DNA of 35,808 bases from Geoalkalibacter sp. (GCF_030604225.1 NZ_JAUVWH010000011.1:1-35808); one strand, 5' to 3'. Numbered from the stretch's first letter, positions 1 to 33,519 are shown. A program made the numbers and translations. Notes: generated by a model from the sequence alone, not told the origin.

Positions 1-184
1 AGTTGCCGCGCGCCGGCCAGGGCCGCGGCGTCGGCGGCGTTCTGCAATTCGCTGCGCGTGGCGTAGAGATAGCCGACATCCACGACCAGGGCGACCATTC
101 CGATCAAAAACATGAGCAGCACCGCCACGAGAACGGCGACGGCGCCCTTCTCCCCGACCCGATAAGGTTTAGCGGACTTATTCA
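1..184 (-). CDS. TadG-like Flp pilus-associated protein, N-terminal part (runs off window)
   Basis: My minus-strand translation from ATG at 184: MNKSAKPYRVGEKGAVAVLVAVLLMFLIGMVALVVDVGYLYATRSELQNAADAAALAGARQ; typical TadG/TadE-like N-terminus, ATG overlaps the upstream tadE stop. Confidence 0.75.
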
Positions 185-648
185 TAGCGCATCACCGTTG
201 TCGCACTGAGAGTCAGAATATTCGACCTGGCGTCACTGGAAAAAAGCTTCCCTAGGTTCGGCAGAAGCAAGAATTGATAGGGGTAATCGACCCTGACGGA
301 CAGATAGTCCAAGGGGCCTGAGTTGGTCGCGTTGGGGCAAATTTCCGTCCCTGGGGCGTCCTTGTCCATGCTGCAGACCTTGATGACAGGCAGGGTTTCC
401 GTGCTCGAAAACGAGACCAGTTTCTGACTGATGTAAGTGTTGATCTCATTTTTTATCTGCGTTTCCGATGCTCGCGGGCTTCCCGAGACAATGCCAAACC
501 TCGCCCCTTCGCGGCTGGCGTTGGTGAGCACCTGTTTGTTGTAGAAGATGAAGCCGTACTCGACAATGCCGAACAAAATCAGTACCAGCAGCGGCAAAAC
601 CACCGCGAATTCAACGGCCGCGCCACCTTTTTCGTTCCCGAGTCTCAT
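178..648 (-). CDS. TadE family pilus assembly protein
   Basis: MRLGNEKGGAAVEFAVVLPLLVLILFGIVEYGFIFYNKQVLTNASREGARFG: TadE-type N-terminal segment; 156 aa from the internal ATG of the listed ORF. Confidence 0.9.
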   Translation of the reverse strand: MRLGNEKGGAAVEFAVVLPLLVLILFGIVEYGFIFYNKQVLTNASREGARFGIVSGSPRASETQIKNEINTYISQKLVSFSSTETLPVIKVCSMDKDAPGTEICPNATNSGPLDYLSVRVDYPYQFLLLPNLGKLFSSDARSNILTLSATTVMRYE

Positions 649-668
649 ACCTTCACCTCTCGGCGTTC

Positions 669-941
669 CTACTTCCCGATGATCCCCAACTGAAACACCT
701 CGCGCCGGGTCGGCTCCTTGGCGAAGGACTTGTGATAGACACCCATGGCCGGTTCGGCGTGAATGCCCTCCAACCCCTCGGGTTGTGCCTCGGCATAGGG
801 AGCGTGAGGATAGGCGATCATCTTGTCCCAGCTTTCCATCTGCGCCTTGCCGAATTCGCGATCCAGGACATAGGCCTCTTCCTTCATGGCGCAGCCCGCG
901 CCAAACGCCAGCACCAGTGCGACAACGATCAATTTCTTCAT
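669..941 (-). CDS. small lipoprotein in Tad locus
   Basis: MKKLIVVALVLAFGAGCAMKEE lipobox; ATGA overlap with the cpaC stop. Confidence 0.75.
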   Translation of the reverse strand: MKKLIVVALVLAFGAGCAMKEEAYVLDREFGKAQMESWDKMIAYPHAPYAEAQPEGLEGIHAEPAMGVYHKSFAKEPTRREVFQLGIIGK

Positions 942-2503
942 TGGGATGTCTCCTTCCGCGTCGCCATGGGCTGATAACCGAACGACCCCTCCAGCCCACC
1001 GCGGCGTGCCGCCGACACGGGCGGCAGAAAACCGTGGCGGCTCAGGTCCGAGGGCTGATCCGGCGCGCGCCGGCCTTCCAGGCGTCCCTCGAGATAGAAT
1101 TCAAAGGCGTTGGGTGTTTGGAAATTCTCGCCGGGAAATTTCAACTCGCCTTCCTTGACGGGCTTGACCAGATGGGGCGTCACGGCGATGAGCAGGTCGG
1201 TCTTCTGCTGCTGGTACGAAGTGCTGCGGAACAACTGCCCAAGAATCGGGATGTCGCCCAGACCCGGAACCTTTCTCACCTGCTCGCGCAGGTCGTCCTG
1301 CAGCAGGCCGGCCAGGGCCAGGGTCTGGCCGTCGTAGAGTTCGACGGTGGTGTCGAGCTTGCGCGTCGCCAGGTTGGGCACGATGAAATTGGTGCCGACG
1401 ATGCCCGCCGGAATGCTGCTGGTCGAGGCGATCTGGCTGACGCTGGGCGCCACGCGCAGGCTGATCTTGCCGTCGGCGAGCACGATGGGCGTGAAGCGCA
1501 GGGCGACGCCGAATTCCTTGAACTCGATGGAGATTTCGTTGAGTCCCGAGGACACGGGAATGGGGAACTCGCCCCCGGCGAGAAAGCTCGCCTCCTTGCC
1601 GCTCTGGGTCACCAGACGCGGCTCGGCGAGAATGCGGGCCAGGCCCTCGGTTTCAAGAAGGTTGAGGGCCAGCTTGAAGTTGTCGATTTGCACGAACATG
1701 TTGGCCGCGTTGCCGGCGAAATTGACCAACAGAGAGCTGGGGTTCTGGATCAGCCCGTCGATGGCGCCCTCAAAAATGCCCGACTGGAAAGGCGCGCTTG
1801 GAAAGTTCGCATTGATGAAGGCGTTTTCAATGGGCGTGAAAACATTACCGACCCCGAAAGCCCCCTGAAAATCGTTCCCCAGCCCTTCCAGGCCGAATCC
1901 CGCCTGCAAATCCTTACCGGAGCTGCGCGTCACCTCGGCGAACTTCACTTCGAGGAGCACCTGCTGCACGCCGCCGACGCGCAGCAGATTGGTGATGCCG
2001 CCGCCGGAAACGCCCGTGCCGGCGGCGCCGTCATCCACTTCGGCGAGGGCGGGCATGAAGGTACGCGTCAGGCGCAGCACCTGCTCCACCACCTCGGGTC
2101 CCGACACCGTGCCGCTCAGCACCACGCCGGTTTCCGAGCCGTGCACCTGGATCTCCTCGTTGGGAAACAACTGATGGATCTTTTCCTTGAGAGCAACGAG
2201 ATCCAGGGCCACCACCACGTCGAGCACCACCTTGTCGCGCCCCTCTTCCCAGAGGATCACCGTGGTGTAGCCGGGATTCTTGCCGTAGGCGTAAAGCTCG
2301 CGCGGCGAGATGATGACCACGTCGGCGATGTCGGGGTTGACCACCGAGGCGCGCTTGACCGGCGCCGCCGTGTCGATGAACCCGGTGCCGCCGATCTTGA
2401 GATTGAGGGTGCGGCGCGGCGTGCCGTCGGCCCAGGCTGGGCCCAGGCCGAGCAGCAGCACCAGGCCGAGCAGCGCGATGCGAAGAAAGAAGCGGAAATC
2501 CAT
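938..2503 (-). CDS. cpaC: Flp pilus secretin (CpaC/RcpA, type II/III secretion secretin family)
   Basis: 521 aa; signal peptide, BON-like N-terminal region, secretin domain ending ...LPGLGDIPILGQLFRSTSYQQQKTDLLIAVTPHLVKP. Confidence 0.92.
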   Translation of the reverse strand: MDFRFFLRIALLGLVLLLGLGPAWADGTPRRTLNLKIGGTGFIDTAAPVKRASVVNPDIADVVIISPRELYAYGKNPGYTTVILWEEGRDKVVLDVVVALDLVALKEKIHQLFPNEEIQVHGSETGVVLSGTVSGPEVVEQVLRLTRTFMPALAEVDDGAAGTGVSGGGITNLLRVGGVQQVLLEVKFAEVTRSSGKDLQAGFGLEGLGNDFQGAFGVGNVFTPIENAFINANFPSAPFQSGIFEGAIDGLIQNPSSLLVNFAGNAANMFVQIDNFKLALNLLETEGLARILAEPRLVTQSGKEASFLAGGEFPIPVSSGLNEISIEFKEFGVALRFTPIVLADGKISLRVAPSVSQIASTSSIPAGIVGTNFIVPNLATRKLDTTVELYDGQTLALAGLLQDDLREQVRKVPGLGDIPILGQLFRSTSYQQQKTDLLIAVTPHLVKPVKEGELKFPGENFQTPNAFEFYLEGRLEGRRAPDQPSDLSRHGFLPPVSAARRGGLEGSFGYQPMATRKETSQ

Positions 2504-2553
2504 GCCTTGCCCTCCGATAACATGAGAATGGAACGCGTTGCGCCGAACAGCCC

Positions 2554-3402
2554 TCAGATTTTTTCCTCGGATTCGACGTTCTTGAACTTGATTTCCTCGG
2601 CGTCCGAGCGCCGGATCACCTCGACGGCAAAGGGCGGCGCCTTGGGCGGCTGAGGCGCCCTGGGGCGCGGCCGATACACCTGGGCGGGGGGCGCCTCGAC
2701 CTGGGCCACTTGGGGCGCGAGCTGGGGCGCGACCTCGTCGAGGGGATTGCGCAACGCCAGCTGCACGCTGCCCTGGCTGGTCTGCAAGGCCAGCTTTTCG
2801 GCCTGCTCGGGGCTCAGCTTCAGAGTCACGGTCTTGACGACCTTGGGCTTGCCGTCCTCATTGGTGGTTTCCTGGGCGATGGCCAGCACCTCGATACGCT
2901 CCAGCAGGGTGCGCGCCTTGACGGCCTTGTTGCCCTGGTCGTCGATGGCAATGACGTCGACGTAGGTATTGGGCAGAATGAAGCCGCCCACGCCGATGAC
3001 CTCATCGACGCGGATGGCCATGGCCCGATGGCCCGGCGCGATGGCGGCCACCAGCCCGGGACCCGAACCGGGCGCGGCCAGATCGGCGGCCAGGACCGGA
3101 TGACCGGCGCGCAGCCGCGCCACGGCCACGCGCCCTTCGCAGGCGGCGACGTCGCTGAACGATCCCTGGGGCACGCCGCCCCGGGGCCAGTCCGCGAGGG
3201 TCAGGTTGGCCGCGCTCAGGGGTGTGCCCACTTCGAGATCGCGCGCGGCGATGACCACTCTGGCCGTGGGAACGGCCTCCTGCTGTATGACCGCCACCTC
3301 GGGCGGGGTCTGCCGGGACAGCCAGCGATTGGCCAGCACCACGGCGAAGAGCCCGGAAAGAATGGCCACGGACAGGGCTAGAACGGCGCCGTACTTCTTC
3401 AT
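2554..3402 (-). CDS. cpaB: Flp pilus assembly protein CpaB/RcpC (SAF domain)
   Basis: VVIAARDLEVGTPLSAANLTLADWPRGGVPQGSFSDV...PGHRAMAIRVDEVIGVGGFILPNTYVDVI is typical of CpaB. Confidence 0.92.
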   Translation of the reverse strand: MKKYGAVLALSVAILSGLFAVVLANRWLSRQTPPEVAVIQQEAVPTARVVIAARDLEVGTPLSAANLTLADWPRGGVPQGSFSDVAACEGRVAVARLRAGHPVLAADLAAPGSGPGLVAAIAPGHRAMAIRVDEVIGVGGFILPNTYVDVIAIDDQGNKAVKARTLLERIEVLAIAQETTNEDGKPKVVKTVTLKLSPEQAEKLALQTSQGSVQLALRNPLDEVAPQLAPQVAQVEAPPAQVYRPRPRAPQPPKAPPFAVEVIRRSDAEEIKFKNVESEEKI

Positions 3403-9417: not shown

Positions 9418-10455
9418 TTAGTCGCCCAGGGTGGTGCGAACTTTTTCCAGATAGTCGGCGCCGATGCGCTCGCCCCACTTGGCCAGCACCGGCTCGGCCT
9501 GCTTGATCAGCTGGGCGCGGTCCTCGTCGGCCAGGGGATAGAACTCGACGCCGTTGGCCTTGGCGGCGTCAATCTGCTCATCCTGCTGACGGCGGGTATT
9601 AACGCGCGAGGCGGCGCTTTCCTCCGCGATGGTTTCAAGGAGCACCTGCTGCAGCTCGGGCGGCAGGCCGTCGAACCAGCGCTTGTTCATCAGGTGCACG
9701 AAGAGACCCTGGGCGTAGTTGACCTGGGTGAAGTGCTTGGCGATGTCGAACTTCTTGGTCAGGTTGCAGACGATGGGGGTGTGGTCGAGGCCGCTGATCA
9801 CGCCGGTTTGCAGGGCTTGGGGCACGTCGGGCCAGGGCATGACGGTGAACTTCAAGCCCCAGGCGCGATAGATATCGGTATTGACCGGCGCCTCGGCGAT
9901 ACGGAAATTGACCCGCCCGGCATCGGCCAGGGTTTTGACCGGCGTGGTGGTGGCCCAGCCGTAGGGGCCGTAGCCGGTGATGTCGGTGACCATCACGCCT
10001 TGGCGCAGGGCGCTGTCGCGGAAGGGCTCCCAGAGCTCGGGAGTGGCGCGGAACTTGTCGAGCTTGTCGAAGGTATCGACCACATAGGGCAGATTGACCA
10101 CGCCCAGCTGATCGGCAAGATTGGCGGCGGCCACCGAGGAGCAGAGCATGCCCTGCACCGCGCCGAGGCGCAGTTTCTGCAGCACGTCGCGCTCGCCGCC
10201 AAGCTGCGCCAGGGGGCGGAAATCGACGTAGAGCCGGCCGTTGGAGCGCTCCCACACCTTGTCGCGGATGCGGTAGCCGACGCCGATGCCGTCGATGCCG
10301 GGATGGGACACGTTGGAGAGAATGTAGGTGTACTTGGCCCCCGAGGGATCAAAGGCCGGCCGCCAGGCCGCCAGGGGATCGTCCTGCGCTTGACCCATGG
10401 CCGGCACCTGGGCCAGCATCATCACCGCCAAAACCGCTGCTGAAAACTTTTTCAC
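9418..10455 (-). CDS. dctP: TRAP transporter substrate-binding protein DctP (copy proximal to permeases)
   Basis: GTG start after AAAGGAG; signal peptide; DctP-type fold sequence, strongly similar to the neighbouring ORF. Confidence 0.9.
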   Translation of the reverse strand: MKKFSAAVLAVMMLAQVPAMGQAQDDPLAAWRPAFDPSGAKYTYILSNVSHPGIDGIGVGYRIRDKVWERSNGRLYVDFRPLAQLGGERDVLQKLRLGAVQGMLCSSVAAANLADQLGVVNLPYVVDTFDKLDKFRATPELWEPFRDSALRQGVMVTDITGYGPYGWATTTPVKTLADAGRVNFRIAEAPVNTDIYRAWGLKFTVMPWPDVPQALQTGVISGLDHTPIVCNLTKKFDIAKHFTQVNYAQGLFVHLMNKRWFDGLPPELQQVLLETIAEESAASRVNTRRQQDEQIDAAKANGVEFYPLADEDRAQLIKQAEPVLAKWGERIGADYLEKVRTTLGD

Positions 10456-10526
10456 CGTCGAACTCCTTTCCAAGGTCGCCTGATTGCTGACGGAAGTGCG
10501 CCTCAGAATAAAACAAACCGCGTTTT

Positions 10527-10556: not shown

Positions 10557-11600
10557 TCAATCCCCCAACTGGGCACGGACTTTCTCGAAATAATCGCTGC
10601 CGATGCGCTCGGACCATTTCTCATAGACCGGCGCGGCCAACTCCTTGAGGCGCTCGCGGTCGGCGGCGGGGAAGTCCACGAAGGTCACCCCGGCTTCGCG
10701 GGCGCGGGCGGTTTCCTCCTCGATCTGGATGCGGCCCAGGCGCCGGGCCTCGGCGCTTTCCTCCTGAATGGTCTCCACCAGGATCTTTTGCAGATCCTCG
10801 GGCAGCTGCTCCAGCCAGCGGCGGTTGATCATGTGGATGTAGAGGCCCTGGGCGTAGCTGAGGGGGGTGAAATAGCGCGCCACGTCGAACTTGCGGGTGA
10901 TGCTGCACACGATCAGCGTGTGATCGAGGCCGTCGATGACGCCGGTTTGCAGGGCCTGATGCACGTCGGGCCAGGGCATGACGGTGAACTTAAAACCCCA
11001 GGCGCGGTAGAGGTCGGTGTTGACCGGCGCTTCGGCGATGCGAAAGTTGACCTTGCCGGCATCGGGGAGGCTCGCCACCGGGGTGGTGGTGGCCCAGCCG
11101 TAGGGGCCGTAGCTGGTGAAATCCACCACGGTCACGCCCTGGGCGTGGGCGGCGCCGGCGAATTCGTCGAAGAGTGCGGGAGTGTTGCGGAATTTTTCGA
11201 GCTTTTCAAAGGTGTCGATGACAAAGGGCAGATTGACGATGCCCAGGCGCGGCGAGAGGTTGGCCGCCGCCACCGAGGAACACATCATGCCGTGCACCGC
11301 GCCGAGGCGCAGCTTCTGCAGCACGTCGCGCTCGCCGCCAAGCTGCGCCAGGGGGCGGAAATCGACATACAGCCGCCCTTCGGAACGCTCCCACACCTTG
11401 TCGCGAATGCGGTAGCCGACGCCGATGCCGGCGATGGCCGGGTGATCGATGTTGGACAGGAGGTAAGTGTACTGGGCACCGCTGGGATCGAAGGCGGGAC
11501 GCCAGGCGGCCAGGGGATCGTCCTGGGCCGAGGCGCAGGGAACAAGCATCACGAGGGCGACGAGCAGGGACAGACCGATGAGTGCCGCGTTTTTCAGCAT
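10557..11600 (-). CDS. dctP: TRAP transporter substrate-binding protein DctP (first copy)
   Basis: ATG at 11600 after AAAGGAG; mature region strongly similar to 9418-10455. Confidence 0.9.
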   Translation of the reverse strand: MLKNAALIGLSLLVALVMLVPCASAQDDPLAAWRPAFDPSGAQYTYLLSNIDHPAIAGIGVGYRIRDKVWERSEGRLYVDFRPLAQLGGERDVLQKLRLGAVHGMMCSSVAAANLSPRLGIVNLPFVIDTFEKLEKFRNTPALFDEFAGAAHAQGVTVVDFTSYGPYGWATTTPVASLPDAGKVNFRIAEAPVNTDLYRAWGFKFTVMPWPDVHQALQTGVIDGLDHTLIVCSITRKFDVARYFTPLSYAQGLYIHMINRRWLEQLPEDLQKILVETIQEESAEARRLGRIQIEEETARAREAGVTFVDFPAADRERLKELAAPVYEKWSERIGSDYFEKVRAQLGD

Positions 11601-11786
11601 GATCAACTCCTTTGCCGACAGGCGGACGAGGGGAGAAAAAAGCCGGAATCACCGCAATTTCAAGGGGAAAACATAATGCCGAACGCGGGCGGGGTCAAGG
11701 CAATTCTGACGGCAATCCCAGGGGGGCCGGGCCTTGCCGATGGACGAGGGGGAGCTATAGTGTGGACTGTAACGAGGGAGGTGTCC

Positions 11787-26622: not shown

Positions 26623-26701
26623 AAGGGACTTAAGGGACACCAGGGACGCCAGGGACAAACACCGGCATCTACTGGTGTCCCTGGCGTCCCTTAGGTCCCT
26701 T
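26623..26701. repeat. 9-bp-periodic AAGGGACnn repeat arranged as an inverted repeat
   Basis: AAGGGACTT AAGGGACAC CAGGGACGC CAGGGACA - loop - TGTCCCTGGCGTCCCTTAGGTCCCTT. Confidence 0.85.
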
Positions 26702-28475
26702 CTGACGATTGTCCATTCTCCAAGGCCTGCAGGCGCCACAAGCGCGCGTACAACCCTTCCTTGGCCAGCAATTCACGATGCTTACCCTCTTCAACGATGC
26801 GCCCCCGGCGCAGCACCACAATGCGCTCGGCATGCACGATGGAGCGCAGGCGGTGGGCGATGAGCAGGGCGCCGCGGCCGCGCCGCGCGGCCTCCATGCC
26901 GGCGCGCACCAACTCCTCGGTCTCGGCGTCGAGGCGGCTGGTGGCCTCATCGAGAATCAGCCATTGGGGATCGGGCACCAGGGCGCGCGCCAGGCACAGC
27001 AGCTGGCGCTCGCCGGCGGAGAGGTTGCGGCCGCGCTCGCTGATGTGCGCCTCCAGGCCGCCGAGGCGCGCCACCACCCGGTCGGCGCCGGTGCGGCGCA
27101 GGATCTCTTCGAGCTCGGCGCCGTCGCGCAGACGTTCGGCGTCGAGGTTGTCATGCACGCTGCCGTCGAAGAGAAACGGCTCCTGGGATACCCAGCCGAT
27201 GCGGCGGCGCACCAGGGCCGGATCCAGGTCGCTGAGCGCCACGCCGTCCAGCAGGATGCGCCCCGCCGTCGGCTCGTAAAACCGCAGCAGCAGCCGCCCC
27301 AGGGTAGTCTTGCCGCTGCCCGTGTCACCCACCAGGGCGACCGTCGCGCCGGGGGGCAAATCGAGCTCGATGTCGTGCAGCACCGGCGCCTCGGCATCAT
27401 AGGCAAAGCTTACCCGGTCGAAGCGGATGGTGCCCGGCCCCGATGCGGCGGTGTGCTTGCCCAAAGGCTCGGCGGGATGATCGAGAAGGTTGAATATGCG
27501 CTCCAGGGAAGCGTTGCTGGCCTGGATCACCGAATACTTGGCGGAGAGATCGCGCAGCGGGGCGAAAAATTTCTGCACGTATTCGATGAAGGCGACCAGC
27601 ACGCCGAAGGACGTCACCCCGGCCAGCACCTCGCCGCCGCCTTTCCACAGGATGGCGGCGATGGCCACCGCGCCCAGGGCCTCGACCCCGGCATAGAGAC
27701 AGGCGTCCCAGTTGATGACGCGCAGGGAGGCGCTCTGGTAGTCATCCTGCAACTGGTCGAATTCCTTGAGGGTGCGCTCCTCCTGCGCGAACAGGCGCAC
27801 CTCGTCGGCGCCGGCGATGCGCTCGGCCACAAAGGCGTTGAGGCCCGCGATCCGCGCGCGCACCTGGCGATTGGCGCGGCGGATGTGATGGCGAAACAGC
27901 AGGCCGAGAAGCAGCAGCAGGGGCATGACCGCGAAGGCCACCAGGGAGAGGCGGGGATTGATCCACAGCATGACGGCGACGATGGCCGCCAGGGTGAGCA
28001 GGTCGCCCAGGGCCGAGACCACCCCGGCGCCGAAGAGTTCGCCGACGTTTTCCACATCCGAGGTCAGGCGCGTCACCAGCCGTCCCGAGGGCTGGCGGTC
28101 GAAGAACGCAACCGGCAACCGCGGCAGCCGCGCGAATCCCTCGCGGCGCAGGTCGGCCATGATGTGCTGGCCCACCCACTGCACGGCGTAGACCTGAAAG
28201 TAGGACAGCAGGCTCTCCGCGGCCAGGGCGAGGAGAAACAGCAGGGCGATGAGCCACAGCCCGGCGATTTCTCCGGGGATGATGTAATCGTCGATGGCCA
28301 GCATCAGCAGGTAGGGCTGCGCCAGCTTGGCCGCGGCCACCCCCGGCAGCAGCAGCAAGGCCGCCAGCGCCGCGCCGCGATAGGCGCCCAGGTAGCCGAC
28401 GAACCGGCGCAGCAGCGCCCAGTCCAAATGGCGCCCGCTGATTTCGTCGCTGTCGTGATGATGGCCGTGGGGCAT
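26691..28475 (-). CDS. ABC exporter subunit (fused TMD-NBD), canonical Walker B glutamate
   Basis: MPHGHHHDSDEISG start; GDTGSGKTT Walker A; NLSAGERQ signature; WLILDEATSRLD Walker B. Confidence 0.93.
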   Translation of the reverse strand: MPHGHHHDSDEISGRHLDWALLRRFVGYLGAYRGAALAALLLLPGVAAAKLAQPYLLMLAIDDYIIPGEIAGLWLIALLFLLALAAESLLSYFQVYAVQWVGQHIMADLRREGFARLPRLPVAFFDRQPSGRLVTRLTSDVENVGELFGAGVVSALGDLLTLAAIVAVMLWINPRLSLVAFAVMPLLLLLGLLFRHHIRRANRQVRARIAGLNAFVAERIAGADEVRLFAQEERTLKEFDQLQDDYQSASLRVINWDACLYAGVEALGAVAIAAILWKGGGEVLAGVTSFGVLVAFIEYVQKFFAPLRDLSAKYSVIQASNASLERIFNLLDHPAEPLGKHTAASGPGTIRFDRVSFAYDAEAPVLHDIELDLPPGATVALVGDTGSGKTTLGRLLLRFYEPTAGRILLDGVALSDLDPALVRRRIGWVSQEPFLFDGSVHDNLDAERLRDGAELEEILRRTGADRVVARLGGLEAHISERGRNLSAGERQLLCLARALVPDPQWLILDEATSRLDAETEELVRAGMEAARRGRGALLIAHRLRSIVHAERIVVLRRGRIVEEGKHRELLAKEGLYARLWRLQALENGQSSEGT

Positions 28476-28485
28476 GAAAAATCCG

Positions 28486-28516
28486 TCAGTCGTCCGTGGT
28501 CCGCGGTCCGTGGTTT
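28486..28516. repeat. short heptameric GGTCCGT-type repeat at the ABC/ABC gene junction
   Basis: TCAGTCGTCCGTGGTCCGCGGTCCGTGGTTT: TCGTCCG TGGTCCG CGGTCCG TGG; encodes HGPRTTDD at the C-terminus. Confidence 0.6.
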
Positions 28517-30249
28517 GAATCCAATCCCGCCTCCAACTCTTCGCGCAGCTGTTCGCGCCGGTAGAGGCGGGCATAGAGGCCTTCCTGGCGCAGCAGCTCG
28601 CCGTGTCGGCCCTGCGCGACGATCCGCCCCTCATCGAGCACCAGGATGAGATCGGCGCCGGTCAGCAGGGACACCCGCCCCGACACCAGAAACACCGTGC
28701 GGCCGCGCAGCAGGGGGCGCAGCTCGGCCCACAGGGCGCGGGCGGTGAGAGCATCGAGATGGCTGAAGGGATCGTCGAGCAGCCACAGGCGCGCCTGGTG
28801 CGCCAGGGCGCGGCCGATGGCGACGCGCTGGCGCTGGCCGCCGGACAGGCTCATCCCTCCCTCGCCGACCCGGGTCTCGAAGCCCTGGGGAAAATGCGCC
28901 GCCTCGGCGCCGAGCTGCACCTGGGCGGCCAGGCGCCGCAGCTCTTCGGCACCGGTCTGGGGTGCGGCGTAGAGCAGATTGTCGCGCAGGCTGCCGGAAA
29001 ACAACCGGCCCTCCTGGGGCACCGCGGCCAGGCGCCGGCGATGAACGCGGGGGTCGAGGGCGGAGAGATCCCGCCCGTCGATGAACAGGGAGCCGGGCGG
29101 CGGGGGATAGAGGGCCGCCAGCAGACGCAGCAGGGTGCTCTTGCCGCTCGCGGCCGGGCCGGTCACCCCGATCAGCGCCCCGGCGGGAACCTCCAGGCGC
29201 AGATCCCGCAGGACGGGCTGGCTCTCATAGGCGAAGGACAGCCCGCGCAGGGACACCGCCGGCGGCTCGGTGCTCGGTGCCGTTTCCGACAGGGGCGGCG
29301 CCGGCGGCAGGGCGAGGAGCAATTGCAGGCGCTCCATGCTCGCCGTGGCGCGCTGCGCCAGGGTCAGCACCCAGCCGAGCAGCAGGGTCGGCCAGGCCAG
29401 CTGCACCAGATAGGCGTTGAAGGCGACAAAATCCCCCAGGGACAAATTGCCCGCCGCCACCTGCCGCCCACCGAAATAGAGCACCAGCAGCGTGCCCAGC
29501 GGACCCACCAGGGTCATCACCGGCAGTACCAGGGCGCGCAGCCGCGCCAGCACCAGGTTGCGACGCAGATAGTCGTCGTTGATTTCCGCGAAGCGCGCGT
29601 TGCGCCCCCCCGCCAGGCCGTAGGCGCGGATCACCGCCTGGCCGCTCACCCCCTCCTCCACCGCCTCGCTCAAGCGCCCCAGGCCTTCCTGCACCTGGGT
29701 CGAGTGGTGCAGCAGGTGACGGCTGAGCCGTTTCACCGCGAGCAGCAGCAGCGGATAGGGCAGCACCGCCACCAGGGTCAGGGTCGGCGACAGGGAGAGC
29801 ATGAGCACCAGGCTCAGCAGATAGACGATGGCCGCGTTGACGATGGTCAGCAGACCAAAGCCGACGAACATGCGCACGTTGGCCAGATCGCCGGTAAAGC
29901 GCGCCAGCAGGTCGCCGGTGCGGTGACGATCGAAGAAAAAGCCGTCCTGGTGCAGCAGCCGCGCCAGCAGGCCGCGACGCAGGGCGACTTCCAGATGCCG
30001 CGCACCGTGCAGGAAATAAAGGCGCGAGGCGATGCGCGTGGCGCCGCGCACCAGGGCGGCCAGGGCCAGCACCGTCGCCGCCCAGAGCAGATCCGCGCCG
30101 CGCCCGGCCTCCACCGCCTCGACCCCGAGCTTGAGCATCCAGGGAATGAGCATGGCGAGCAGGGTGGTGGCCAGCAGCCACAGGCTGCCCCAGGCCAGGG
30201 CGGCGCGCTGGGGCATCAGGTAGGGACGCAGGGCGGCGAGCACCCTCAT
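28486..30249 (-). CDS. ABC exporter subunit (fused TMD-NBD), Walker B Asp in place of Glu
   Basis: GPAASGKST Walker A; MSLSGGQRQRVAIGRAL signature; LWLLDDPFSHLD Walker B. Confidence 0.93.
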   Translation of the reverse strand: MRVLAALRPYLMPQRAALAWGSLWLLATTLLAMLIPWMLKLGVEAVEAGRGADLLWAATVLALAALVRGATRIASRLYFLHGARHLEVALRRGLLARLLHQDGFFFDRHRTGDLLARFTGDLANVRMFVGFGLLTIVNAAIVYLLSLVLMLSLSPTLTLVAVLPYPLLLLAVKRLSRHLLHHSTQVQEGLGRLSEAVEEGVSGQAVIRAYGLAGGRNARFAEINDDYLRRNLVLARLRALVLPVMTLVGPLGTLLVLYFGGRQVAAGNLSLGDFVAFNAYLVQLAWPTLLLGWVLTLAQRATASMERLQLLLALPPAPPLSETAPSTEPPAVSLRGLSFAYESQPVLRDLRLEVPAGALIGVTGPAASGKSTLLRLLAALYPPPPGSLFIDGRDLSALDPRVHRRRLAAVPQEGRLFSGSLRDNLLYAAPQTGAEELRRLAAQVQLGAEAAHFPQGFETRVGEGGMSLSGGQRQRVAIGRALAHQARLWLLDDPFSHLDALTARALWAELRPLLRGRTVFLVSGRVSLLTGADLILVLDEGRIVAQGRHGELLRQEGLYARLYRREQLREELEAGLDSNHGPRTTDD

Positions 30250-30815
30250 GGCGGCGCGTCCTGTGCCGCCGGCCGGGCAAAGGCGCGATGACCGCGCACC
30301 GCGTCGATGAGCAGCGCGGCGGCAAAGCCGTTGAGCAGCCCCGTCGCCAGGGACAGAAGCAGGAAAAAGGGCAGCAGCAGCCACAGCCCGTCGTGGCGCA
30401 CCAACAGCAACCAGGCCACCAACAGCTGCCCGAGGGCATGGCCCACGGCGCCCAGGGCCGAGGCCCCCACCGGCCCCAGGCGCGCGCCGAACATTTCTCG
30501 CGCACCCGTCATCAGCGCCGTCGCCGCCACCGCCCCGGCCAGGGAGAGAAAAAAACCGGGGGCAAAAAGGTTGCCGAGAATCAGCGAACCGACCAGCACC
30601 CGCGCCAGGCTCAGGGTCCAGGCGGCGCGGCCGTCGAAAAGAAACAGGGCGCAGAGAGTGAGAATGTTGGCGAAGCCCAGGCGAAACCAGGGCGCCGGGG
30701 CGGGCAGGAGAAATTCCAGGGTGTGCAGGGCCACCGCTAGGGCGGTGAACAGGGCGAGGAACACGCGACGCCGGCAGCGCGCCAGTTCGACAGGATCAAT
30801 GGCTGAGGAGGTCAT
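30246..30815 (-). CDS. Gx transporter family / heptaprenyl diphosphate synthase component I-like membrane protein (EetB-like)
   Basis: ALFTALAVALHTLEFLLPAPAPWFRLGFANILTLCALFLFDGRAAWTLSLARVLVGSLILGNLFAPGFFLSLAGAVAATALM. Confidence 0.85.
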   Translation of the reverse strand: MTSSAIDPVELARCRRRVFLALFTALAVALHTLEFLLPAPAPWFRLGFANILTLCALFLFDGRAAWTLSLARVLVGSLILGNLFAPGFFLSLAGAVAATALMTGAREMFGARLGPVGASALGAVGHALGQLLVAWLLLVRHDGLWLLLPFFLLLSLATGLLNGFAAALLIDAVRGHRAFARPAAQDAPP

Positions 30816-31188
30816 AGGCTGGAGATCCCTGGTCGGCGCCGCCCTCAATGCTGATGATCAGCCGGTTGGGAATACAGGCGATGAGCTCGCCGCGCCGGAA
30901 CACCCCGCCCATGCCCATGCACACCTTGTGCGGGCAGGGCGAGGAGAGGATGCGCGCCCGGCCGTCGGCGATCTCCAGCAGGGTGTCGCCCAAGGGCCCG
31001 GGCAGGGCGACGCGGCGCGCCTCGCCGAGGGGGGCGCTGAACAGCAGCCGCCCATCGCGCTCCACCAGCACCCGCGCCCCGGCCGGCTGACGCCCGAGCA
31101 CCGCGAAGGAGGCCAGCACCCCCAGCAGCAGAAGCGCGACGATGAAGCGATCCAGGACCGTCATGCGCCGCCACAGGGCCGCGATCAC
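30796..31188 (-). CDS. NusG domain II-containing protein (EetA-like)
   Basis: Single TM then NusG_II: ...SPCPHKVCMGMGGVFRRGELIACIPNRLIISIEG. Confidence 0.85.
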   Translation of the reverse strand: MIAALWRRMTVLDRFIVALLLLGVLASFAVLGRQPAGARVLVERDGRLLFSAPLGEARRVALPGPLGDTLLEIADGRARILSSPCPHKVCMGMGGVFRRGELIACIPNRLIISIEGGADQGSPAYDLLSH

Positions 31189-32174
31189 CGCTTGAGCTCC
31201 GCCAGGCCCGGGGTCGCGTGGGTTGCGCCGTCGGCCGCGACGATCAGCGCCTCGACGCCGGGAAATTCGGTGAGCAGCGCCAGCCCCTTCTCGGGACCCA
31301 GCACGAACACCGCCGTGGCCAGGGCATCGGCGAGCATGGCGCTGTCCGCCACCAGGGTCACGCTCTGGCAGGCGCTGGCGGGATAGCCGCTGCGCGGGTC
31401 GAAGATGTGATGGTAGCGCCGGCCGTCCACCTCGAAAAAGCGCTCGTAATCGCCCGAGGTGACCACCGCGCGGCCGCTCAGTTCCAGGGTGGCGAGGAGC
31501 TCCTCGGCGCTGCGCGGGTGGCGAATGCCGATGCGCCAGGGCCGCGCGCCGCGGCTGCCGAGCAGGCGCAGATCGCCGCCGGCGTTGACCGAGGCCTGCT
31601 CGATACCGGCCCCCGCCAACACGGCGATGGCGCGGTCGATGGCATAGCCCTTGGCGATTCCGCCGAGATCCACCGCCAGATCGGGCCGCGCCTTGCTCAC
31701 CCAGCGGCCATCGAGGCGCAGGGCCCCGGGGCCGATCCCCTCCAGGGCGGCGGCGATCTCCGCATCATCCGGCACCCGCGGATTATCCCCTTCCAGATCC
31801 CACAGCGCCTTGAGCCGCCCCAGGGTCAGGTCAAAGGCGCCCGCGCTGCGCGCGGCGACGTCCAGGCCCAGGGCGAAGACCTCGGCGGTGTCGGGCGCCA
31901 CCTCCAGGGACTCCTCGGCGGCGGAGAGCCGCGCCACATCGCTGTCGGGACGATGGGGGCTCATCAGCGCCTCGATGCGCGCCATCTCGGCAAAGGCGGC
32001 CGTCACCGCGTCCCGTGCCGCTCGATCGCCCCGGGGCACCTGGATTTCCACCAGGGTGCCGAGCAGGATGCGGCCCTCGCGCAGCTCGGCCTCCCGGCCG
32101 CCGCGCTTGACCAGCGCCAGCGCCGCCAGCAGCACCAGCAGCAGCACGACAATGAGGGGGCGGTTCAGGGGCAA
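31185..32174 (-). CDS. apbE: FAD:protein FMN transferase (ApbE)
   Basis: LGTLVEIQVPRGD...EALMSPHRPDSDVARLS...FDLTLGRLKALWDLEGDNP...VDLGGIAKGYAIDRAI...ASVNAGGDLRLLG; TTG start inferred. Confidence 0.92.
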   Translation of the reverse strand: MPLNRPLIVVLLLVLLAALALVKRGGREAELREGRILLGTLVEIQVPRGDRAARDAVTAAFAEMARIEALMSPHRPDSDVARLSAAEESLEVAPDTAEVFALGLDVAARSAGAFDLTLGRLKALWDLEGDNPRVPDDAEIAAALEGIGPGALRLDGRWVSKARPDLAVDLGGIAKGYAIDRAIAVLAGAGIEQASVNAGGDLRLLGSRGARPWRIGIRHPRSAEELLATLELSGRAVVTSGDYERFFEVDGRRYHHIFDPRSGYPASACQSVTLVADSAMLADALATAVFVLGPEKGLALLTEFPGVEALIVAADGATHATPGLAELKR

Positions 32175-32178
32175 GGAA

Positions 32179-33519
32179 TCAATCCTCGACGATTTCCCCG
32201 ATGAGGTCGTATTCCGAGGAATCGGTGATGCGCAGGCGCACGATCTGACCGATGTCGGCCTGGCCGGCGGTGATGTAAACCTGACCGTCCACATCGGGGG
32301 CCTGGCGCACCGAACGGCCGCGCAGCAGCAGCTCGCTCTCCTCGCTGAGTCCCTCGACCAGCACCGGTTCGATGCGCCCCACCAGGGCGCGGTTCTTGCG
32401 GAAGGAAATGCGCGCCTGGGCCTTCATCAGCCGCTTGTAGCGCTCGCTCTTGACCCGCTCGGAAATCTGTCCGGGCAGGGTGGCGGCCGCCGTGCCCTCC
32501 TCGCGGGAATAGCGGAACACGCCGAGGCGGTCGAAATGGCCCTCCTCGACGAAGCGCAGCAGCTTGTCGAACTGCTCGGGCGTCTCGCCGGGAAAGCCGA
32601 CGATGAAGGAGGTGCGCAGGGTCAACTCGGGTATGCGCGCGCGCAGCCGCGCGATGAGCTCGCGCACCTCGGCCTCGCCGACGCGCCGGTTCATGGCGCC
32701 GAGCAGCTGATCGTCGATGTGCTGCAGGGGGATGTCGAGATACTTGCAGATCTTGTCCTCGCCGGCGATGAGATCAATGAGTTCCTCGCCGACCCCGTCG
32801 GGATAGGCGTAGAGCAGGCGCAGCCAGCGCAGGCCGTCGATCTTAACCAGGCGCCGCAGCAGCTCGGGCAGGTTGGCCCCGTCGTCACGGTCGGCGCCGT
32901 AGGCGGTGATGTCCTGGGCGATGAGGTTGATCTCCGCCACGCCCTGGGCCACCATGCGCTCGGCCTCGGCCACCACCGAGTCCATGGCGCGCGAGCGCAG
33001 GGTGCCGCGCAGCTTGGGGATGATGCAGTAGGAGCAGTGATTGGCGCAGCCGTCGGCGATCTTGATGTAGGTGCTGTAGAAGGGCGAGGATTGCACGCGC
33101 GGCGTGGTGTGGTCGTAGAGAAAATCGGGCGCGCCGATGGCCTCGCGCACCTGGCCCCCGCCGAGTTTTTCATCAAGCAGGCCCGGCAGGCGCGCCGCGT
33201 CGCCGGTGCCGAGGAACAGATCGACCTCGGGCAGCTCGCTGCTCAGCTCGTCGCGGTAGCGCTGCGGCAGGCAGCCGGTCACCACCAGCAGCTTGCAGCG
33301 ACCTGACTTCTTGTGGTCGGCCACCTCGAGAATGGTGTCGACGGACTCTTCCTGGGCGTCCTGGATGAAGGAGCAGGTGTTGACGATGATAATGTCGGCG
33401 CTCGCCTCGTCGGTGACGATCTCGTAGCGTTCCGGCGGCAGATGGCCGAGCATGACCTCGGCGTCCACCAGGTTTTTCGGGCAGCCGAGGCTGACCAGAC
33501 TGACTGTGTGCTTGTTCAA
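32179..33519 (-). CDS. rimO: ribosomal protein S12 methylthiotransferase RimO
   Basis: [20 protein letters not shown]...[18 protein letters not shown]...[21 protein letters not shown]. Confidence 0.95.

Follow-up and report, generated by a model that had tools for sequence, protein, structure and literature searches.

One of the closest known relatives of the locus analyzed here is the flavin export system of Listeria, in which EetB, an FAD-exporting substrate (S) subunit of an energy-coupling factor (ECF) transporter, binds flavin adenine dinucleotide (FAD), is needed for flavinylation and does not stand in for RibU in uptake, and in which FAD export requires, together with EetB, the T subunit FmnA and EcfA/EcfA' (PMC9973259). 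Deletion of Listeria eetA has no phenotype in extracellular electron transfer (EET), EetB homologues occur beyond Firmicutes, and Rnf and EetB are reported to be co-localized in 572 genomes of Clostridia (PMC9973259). We analyzed a stretch of 35,808 nucleotides from Geoalkalibacter sp. (GCF_030604225.1, NZ_JAUVWH010000011.1:1-35808), hereinafter the window, which is an entire contig (C48) of a 3.07 Mb genome that is assembled in 204 contigs and is 92% complete. The window encodes an ApbE-family transferase, a protein containing NusG domain II (EetA) and a homologue of EetB, and this trio very probably serves the ion pumps Rnf and Nqr by supplying flavin and flavinylating their subunits; it would export FAD and attach flavin mononucleotide (FMN).

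Under the proposed mechanism, EetB, acting with an EcfT subunit that is encoded elsewhere in the genome in a leuB-ecfT-truA locus, would carry cytosolic FAD outward across the inner membrane. ApbE, anchored on the periplasmic side, would cleave FAD and attach FMN to the threonine of the motif Dxx[ST]xAT in RnfG, RnfD, NqrC and NqrB, and EetA, a putative membrane-anchored periplasmic NusG-II domain, probably links EetB to ApbE and organizes the handover. Within this scheme we infer FAD as the substrate, the outward direction of transport, the contact between EetB and EcfT, and the role of EetA.

All three genes lie on the minus strand where the preliminary description had placed them, and the matches of their products to the Pfam families ApbE, NusG_II and Hpre_diP_synt_I are all far above the gathering cut-offs. 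The apbE gene (31185..32174) encodes an FAD:protein FMN transferase of 329 aa with an N-terminal membrane anchor or signal (PF02424, 293 bits); eetA (30796..31188) encodes 130 aa, with one N-terminal transmembrane helix followed by an extracytosolic NusG domain II (PF07009, 74.7 bits); and eetB (30246..30815) encodes a homologue of ECF-transporter S components, a predicted FAD carrier of 189 aa (PF07456, 137 bits against a cut-off of 30). The genes are tightly packed. The apbE gene starts with TTG 4 bp past the stop of the upstream neighbor rimO, and its own stop overlaps the start of eetA, as described previously; the junction, however, reads GTGA (GTG start at 31188-31186, TGA stop at 31187-31185) and not ATGA, a sequence that instead forms the overlap between eetB and the following gene (30249-30246), where the latter starts within the eetB stop. 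The reported 20-bp overlap of eetA and eetB is present, with the eetB ATG at 30815 and the eetA stop at 30796.

The genome encodes a single detectable copy of ApbE. It is similar to solved FMN transferases (phmmer, 5e-48 for 1vrm and ~1e-44 for 4ifu and 4xdt), and the motifs NAGGDLR, KGYAID, HHIFDP and ADALATAVFVLG are present and aligned with those of the solved enzymes. Only two FMN_bind proteins were found in the genome, namely RnfG, encoded within a complete rnfABCDGE operon (L081), and NqrC, encoded within a complete nqrABCDEF operon (L082); both operons were read and neither contains apbE. The motif that is modified by ApbE, Dxx[ST]xAT, is present in four subunits of these pumps: DLVTTAT in RnfD, DEITGAT in RnfG, DGVTAAT in NqrB and DGLSGAT in NqrC. 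Given that there is a sole ApbE, that the pump operons lack an apbE of their own and that four of their subunits carry the motif, this ApbE most likely serves both Rnf and Nqr.

The identity of these substrates bears on whether the trio functions in flavin-based EET of the Listeria type, in which EetA and EetB would belong to the electron path and ApbE would flavinylate a surface protein from which minerals receive electrons. The class to which the window belongs is known for its metal reducers, and the three proteins fall into the same Pfam families as the Listeria set, so that the kinship to EetA, EetB and FmnB-type ApbE proposed in the preliminary description holds. However, the FMN_bind search of the genome, which gave only RnfG and NqrC, detected no PplA-like protein, and genes for NDH-2, demethylmenaquinone synthesis and polyprenyl synthase are absent beside the trio. 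Furthermore, EetB and ApbE supply flavin even in Listeria; because EetB is an FAD exporter there and the deletion of eetA is silent with respect to EET (PMC9973259), the trio appears to be responsible for flavin supply and attachment rather than to be part of an electron path. Participation of the trio in EET is therefore very unlikely, and we reject it on the strength of the missing PplA-like substrate. Of the compact membrane module for flavinylation and electron transfer that had been proposed at the outset, the flavinylation part stands and flavin-based EET does not; the search for FMN-binding-domain substrates suggested at the same time retrieved two, and whereas the lack of any ApbE substrate had been named as evidence against the proposal, substrates do exist but belong to Rnf and Nqr rather than to EET.

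The modeled structure of EetB is that of an ECF substrate subunit and most resembles the riboflavin-binding RibU. In a search of the PDB with a profile made from the EetB alignment, RibU was the sole significant match (1.6e-4), and the AlphaFold model (predicted local distance difference test, pLDDT, 93.7) is closest in fold to the RibU structures 3p5n and 5kbw (Foldseek probability 1.00 and template-modeling score TMt up to 0.75, with E-values of only 0.01-0.02), followed by other ECF S components. Helix 1 retains the contact motif Ala21-xxx-Ala25, and a small-xxx-small pattern is found at this position in 49 of 66 relatives. The Pfam name of PF07456 denotes component I of heptaprenyl diphosphate synthase, which would place the trio in the synthesis of quinone side chains; this function is extremely unlikely and is rejected on the fold of EetB, and no polyprenyl synthase gene is present among the annotated neighbors of EetB in the window (cheD, lolA, yajQ, rimO and two ABC transporter genes). 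The fold that EetB shares with importers such as RibU would also be compatible with uptake of flavins from the medium by EetB and EcfT instead of export of FAD. We consider such uptake improbable given that every genome with EetB also encodes ApbE, usually by an adjoining gene, that ApbE is exported and uses up FAD, and that the EetB of Listeria is no substitute for RibU in uptake (PMC9973259).

EetA, in its AlphaFold model (pLDDT 90), has as its top fold matches 4esn (TMt 0.93), the NusG domain II of Aquifex and Lin0431, and is the only NusG_II protein of the genome. It lacks the NGN and KOW domains that flank domain II in the NusG transcription factor, consisting, in its 130 aa, of one helix and domain II only. 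The motif CPHKVC and the third cysteine noted previously are both present (Cys85-x4-Cys90 and Cys105, 30874..30936), and all 41 members from the class have each of these cysteines without exception, whereas in a set of 61 proteins spanning several phyla, 50 have all three; the cysteines may have a redox or a structural role.

The distribution of the module was surveyed in 277 genomes of the class to which the window belongs, a set that includes related genomes which are not independent of each other. The named relatives in which EetB was found are Desulfuromonadales, and the class is most likely Desulfuromonadia. EetB was detected in 91 genomes, EetA in 90 (all within these 91), ApbE in 137 and NqrA in 72; strong RnfC was present in 102, comprising 101 matches above the cut-off and a contig-end fragment beside RnfG in genome G063. 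All 91 EetB genomes encode ApbE and 90 of the 91 encode EetA, with eetA and eetB side by side in the 90 genomes that share them, a gene order far beyond chance. EetB and RnfC occur together in 77 genomes, EetB alone in 14, RnfC alone in 25 and neither in 161 (odds ratio 35; p = 1e-31 with kinship ignored, a value that is descriptive only because related genomes are not independent). The simple explanation that EetB tracks Rnf is weakened, on the one hand, by Rnf genomes that lack EetA and EetB and, on the other hand, by genus g20, in which Nqr is present without Rnf, eetA and eetB persist behind rimO, the apbE of the trio is gone and the sole apbE adjoins nqr. The arrangement in g20 favors a role of EetA and EetB in serving Nqr.

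Two genomic arrangements of the trio can be distinguished. In nearly all loci read from the order to which the window belongs, it is located behind rimO, and the order rimO-apbE-eetA-eetB is kept across that order. Nine loci (families f19, f24 and f25; L056, L058-L064 and L077) instead contain ecfT-rnfCDGEAB-apbE-eetA-eetB as a single operon. Eight of them have a gene for an ECF ATPase ahead of ecfT, and the sequence available for the remaining one (L064) begins too near ecfT to tell. The one such ATPase that was scanned (L059) belongs to TIGR04521, above the cut-off. In the ApbE tree, the rimO, rnf-operon and nqr types are separate, with a supported branch setting each apart, and the grouping of the rnf-operon type with clostridial sequences from rnf-apbE-eetA-eetB operons (support 99/99) suggests that this type has passed between phyla.

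The T subunit expected to act with EetB is not encoded in the window. Three T subunits of the CbiQ family are present in the genome; two of these are CbiQ proteins above the cut-off in metal-transport loci, and the third, encoded between leuB and truA on contig C136 (L080:5072-5860), matches group II EcfT structures (4hzu_T, 6e-25) but none of the NCBIfam families at the threshold applied. A search of the class with this EcfT matched 91 genomes, 79 of which also encode EetB. Among the genomes of the order that are at least 98% complete, excluding the operon-bearing genomes of f19, 36 encode both EcfT and EetB, 19 neither, one only EcfT and two only EetB, and the absences are spread over several separate families and genera. 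In the leuB-ecfT-truA loci that were read, there is no ecfA between leuB and truA; ABC-type ATPase genes are located upstream of leuB in several loci of family f3 (L215, L220, L225-L227, L231 and L233). The Firmicutes gene order is ecfA-ecfA'-ecfT-truA, and the truA-rplM side of the leuB-ecfT-truA loci recalls it.

EcfT subunits anchor to the ATPases via two X-Arg-X motifs, and replacement of either arginine inactivates subgroup II transporters (PMC3246461, PMC10368641). We aligned 87 EcfT sequences: 70 from leuB-ecfT-truA loci, nine from rnf operons and eight from loci outside the class with an adjacent EcfA. The arginine in the motif 2 column is present in none of the 70 leuB-ecfT-truA sequences compared with 16 of the 17 others (8/8 EcfA-adjacent and 8/9 from rnf operons), and a search tolerant of shifts detected neither motif in 56 of the 70. 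Motif 2 provides the firmer contrast because motif 1 is, under the same search, also absent from five of the nine rnf-operon proteins. The EcfT of the window genome retains ARG one residue out of register and hence is among the least degenerate of these proteins. In the leuB-ecfT-truA sequences (L080, L088-L117 and L198-L237), several Gly and Pro columns are conserved at 99-100%, and there are conserved residues specific to this group, which argues against decay. Judging by this alignment, the leuB-ecfT-truA EcfT is a coherent subfamily that has lost the canonical ATPase-anchoring arginine. No report of an ApbE-EetA-EetB module in Desulfuromonadales or of an EcfT lacking the coupling arginines was found in the open-licence literature; an EcfT subfamily that co-occurs with EetB and has lost the coupling arginine is apparently unreported.

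Two scenarios for the energization of export were considered. The first, which in our estimate falls only a little short of an even chance, is that export is powered by a borrowed ECF ATPase, for instance the CbiO that belongs to the cobalt transporter (contig C12), with the altered EcfT motifs being mere variants. Of the ATPases in the genome, CbiO and the fused ATPase of a second metal transporter match the ECF type best, the EcfT of the window genome keeps its shifted ARG, and the Listeria export complex shares EcfA/EcfA' with import (PMC9973259); against this scenario stand the motif counts given above, 0/70 for the motif 2 arginine and 56/70 for the loss of both motifs, and the location of each of the two ATPases beside its own CbiQ. 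The second scenario, which we advance tentatively and regard as rather unlikely, is that in this order of Gram-negative bacteria the FAD exporter has become an ECF transporter that works with no ECF ATPase and is made up of EetB and a specialized EcfT; because the arginines by which the ATPases are anchored are gone from this otherwise conserved EcfT subfamily, export would be driven by something else, for example, the irreversible consumption of periplasmic FAD by ApbE.

Several observations weigh against the assignment of the trio to flavin supply for Rnf and Nqr. In the window genome it adjoins rimO, not rnf or nqr. Eight near-complete genomes (G034, G035, G075, G087, G088, G107, G108 and G134) encode Rnf and ApbE without EetA, EetB or the leuB-truA EcfT, and genomes with Rnf and ApbE that lack EetA and EetB must have another flavin supply. 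No dedicated ECF ATPase was found: in the 92%-complete genome, no single-domain ATPase scores above the TIGR04520 cut-off (TIGR04521 was not searched), and the only ECF-like ATPases are located in CbiM/CbiQ-type metal loci. Finally, given the incompleteness of the genome and its 204 contigs, a further ApbE substrate could be missing from the assembly.

Pfam and NCBIfam together name each protein of the run from rimO to the second ABC gene, EetA and EetB having no NCBIfam match. The conserved upstream neighbor rimO (32179..33519, minus strand; TIGR01125, above the cut-off) encodes the ribosomal protein S12 methylthiotransferase and is probably in the same transcript as apbE-eetA-eetB. Downstream of eetB, also on the minus strand, are ABC1 (28486..30249; PF00664 and PF00005), a TmrB-like half ABC exporter with a degenerate Walker B (LLDDP), for which 5mkk_B and 6raf_B are among the best bacterial matches in the PDB, and, after a gap of 10 bp, its partner ABC2 (26691..28475; identified by Pfam; 5mkk_A, 5e-122), a TmrA-like half exporter with a canonical Walker B. 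The pair thus resembles the heterodimeric exporter TmrAB, one site being degenerate. Because these genes adjoin eetB in only five families (f1, f6, f15, f17 and f18), they were ruled out as part of the core module; in other families, eetB is followed by a small lipoprotein-like gene, an Hsp33-like gene (identified by eye) or a nucleotidyltransferase-like gene. The TmrAB-like pair is a lineage-specific neighbor, and nothing ties it to the flavin module. Elsewhere in the window, two tandem genes for solute-binding proteins that are 68% identical (9418-10473 and 10557-11606) represent a local duplication and are adjoined by apparent genes for TRAP-type membrane subunits, and Tad/Flp pilus genes (TadE-like, secretin and RcpC/CpaB) are located at 178-3402, close to the contig edge. 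No Rfam matches or tRNAs were found in the window.

The presence of ApbE, EetA and EetB alone is no marker of EET; here, the trio most likely is involved in the maturation of Rnf and Nqr. It offers a candidate route by which FAD could reach the periplasm of these Gram-negative bacteria for use in flavinylation and, if the EcfT result is true, a transporter class that has kept the ECF scaffold and shed the motor.

Compared with the system of Listeria monocytogenes, which consists of EetB-FmnA-EcfA/A', FmnB and EetA, the locus in the window encodes the same ApbE, EetA and EetB families and shares the RibU-like ECF-S fold of EetB, the use of a T subunit that is a protein of its own, and the consumption of the flavin by ApbE. 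Unlike in Listeria, the host is Gram-negative, the probable targets are Rnf and Nqr and not PplA, no ECF ATPase is encoded at the locus, and the gene for the T subunit lies elsewhere, its product being devoid of the canonical coupling arginine. The solitary S components BioY and BtuM, which transport without an ECF module (PMC11109136), likewise are S components without an evident ATPase; unlike in these cases, a T subunit is retained here and co-occurs with the S component. The Nqr-linked ApbE of the same order belongs to the same enzyme family and flavinylates NqrB and NqrC, but forms a distant clade encoded beside nqr, often without EetA and EetB, and is missing from the window genome. In the clostridial rnfCDGEAB-apbE-eetA-eetB operons, the same trio serves Rnf as it would in the window genome, whereas the trio of the window is unlinked from rnf and located behind rimO, and its ApbE represents a separate lineage.

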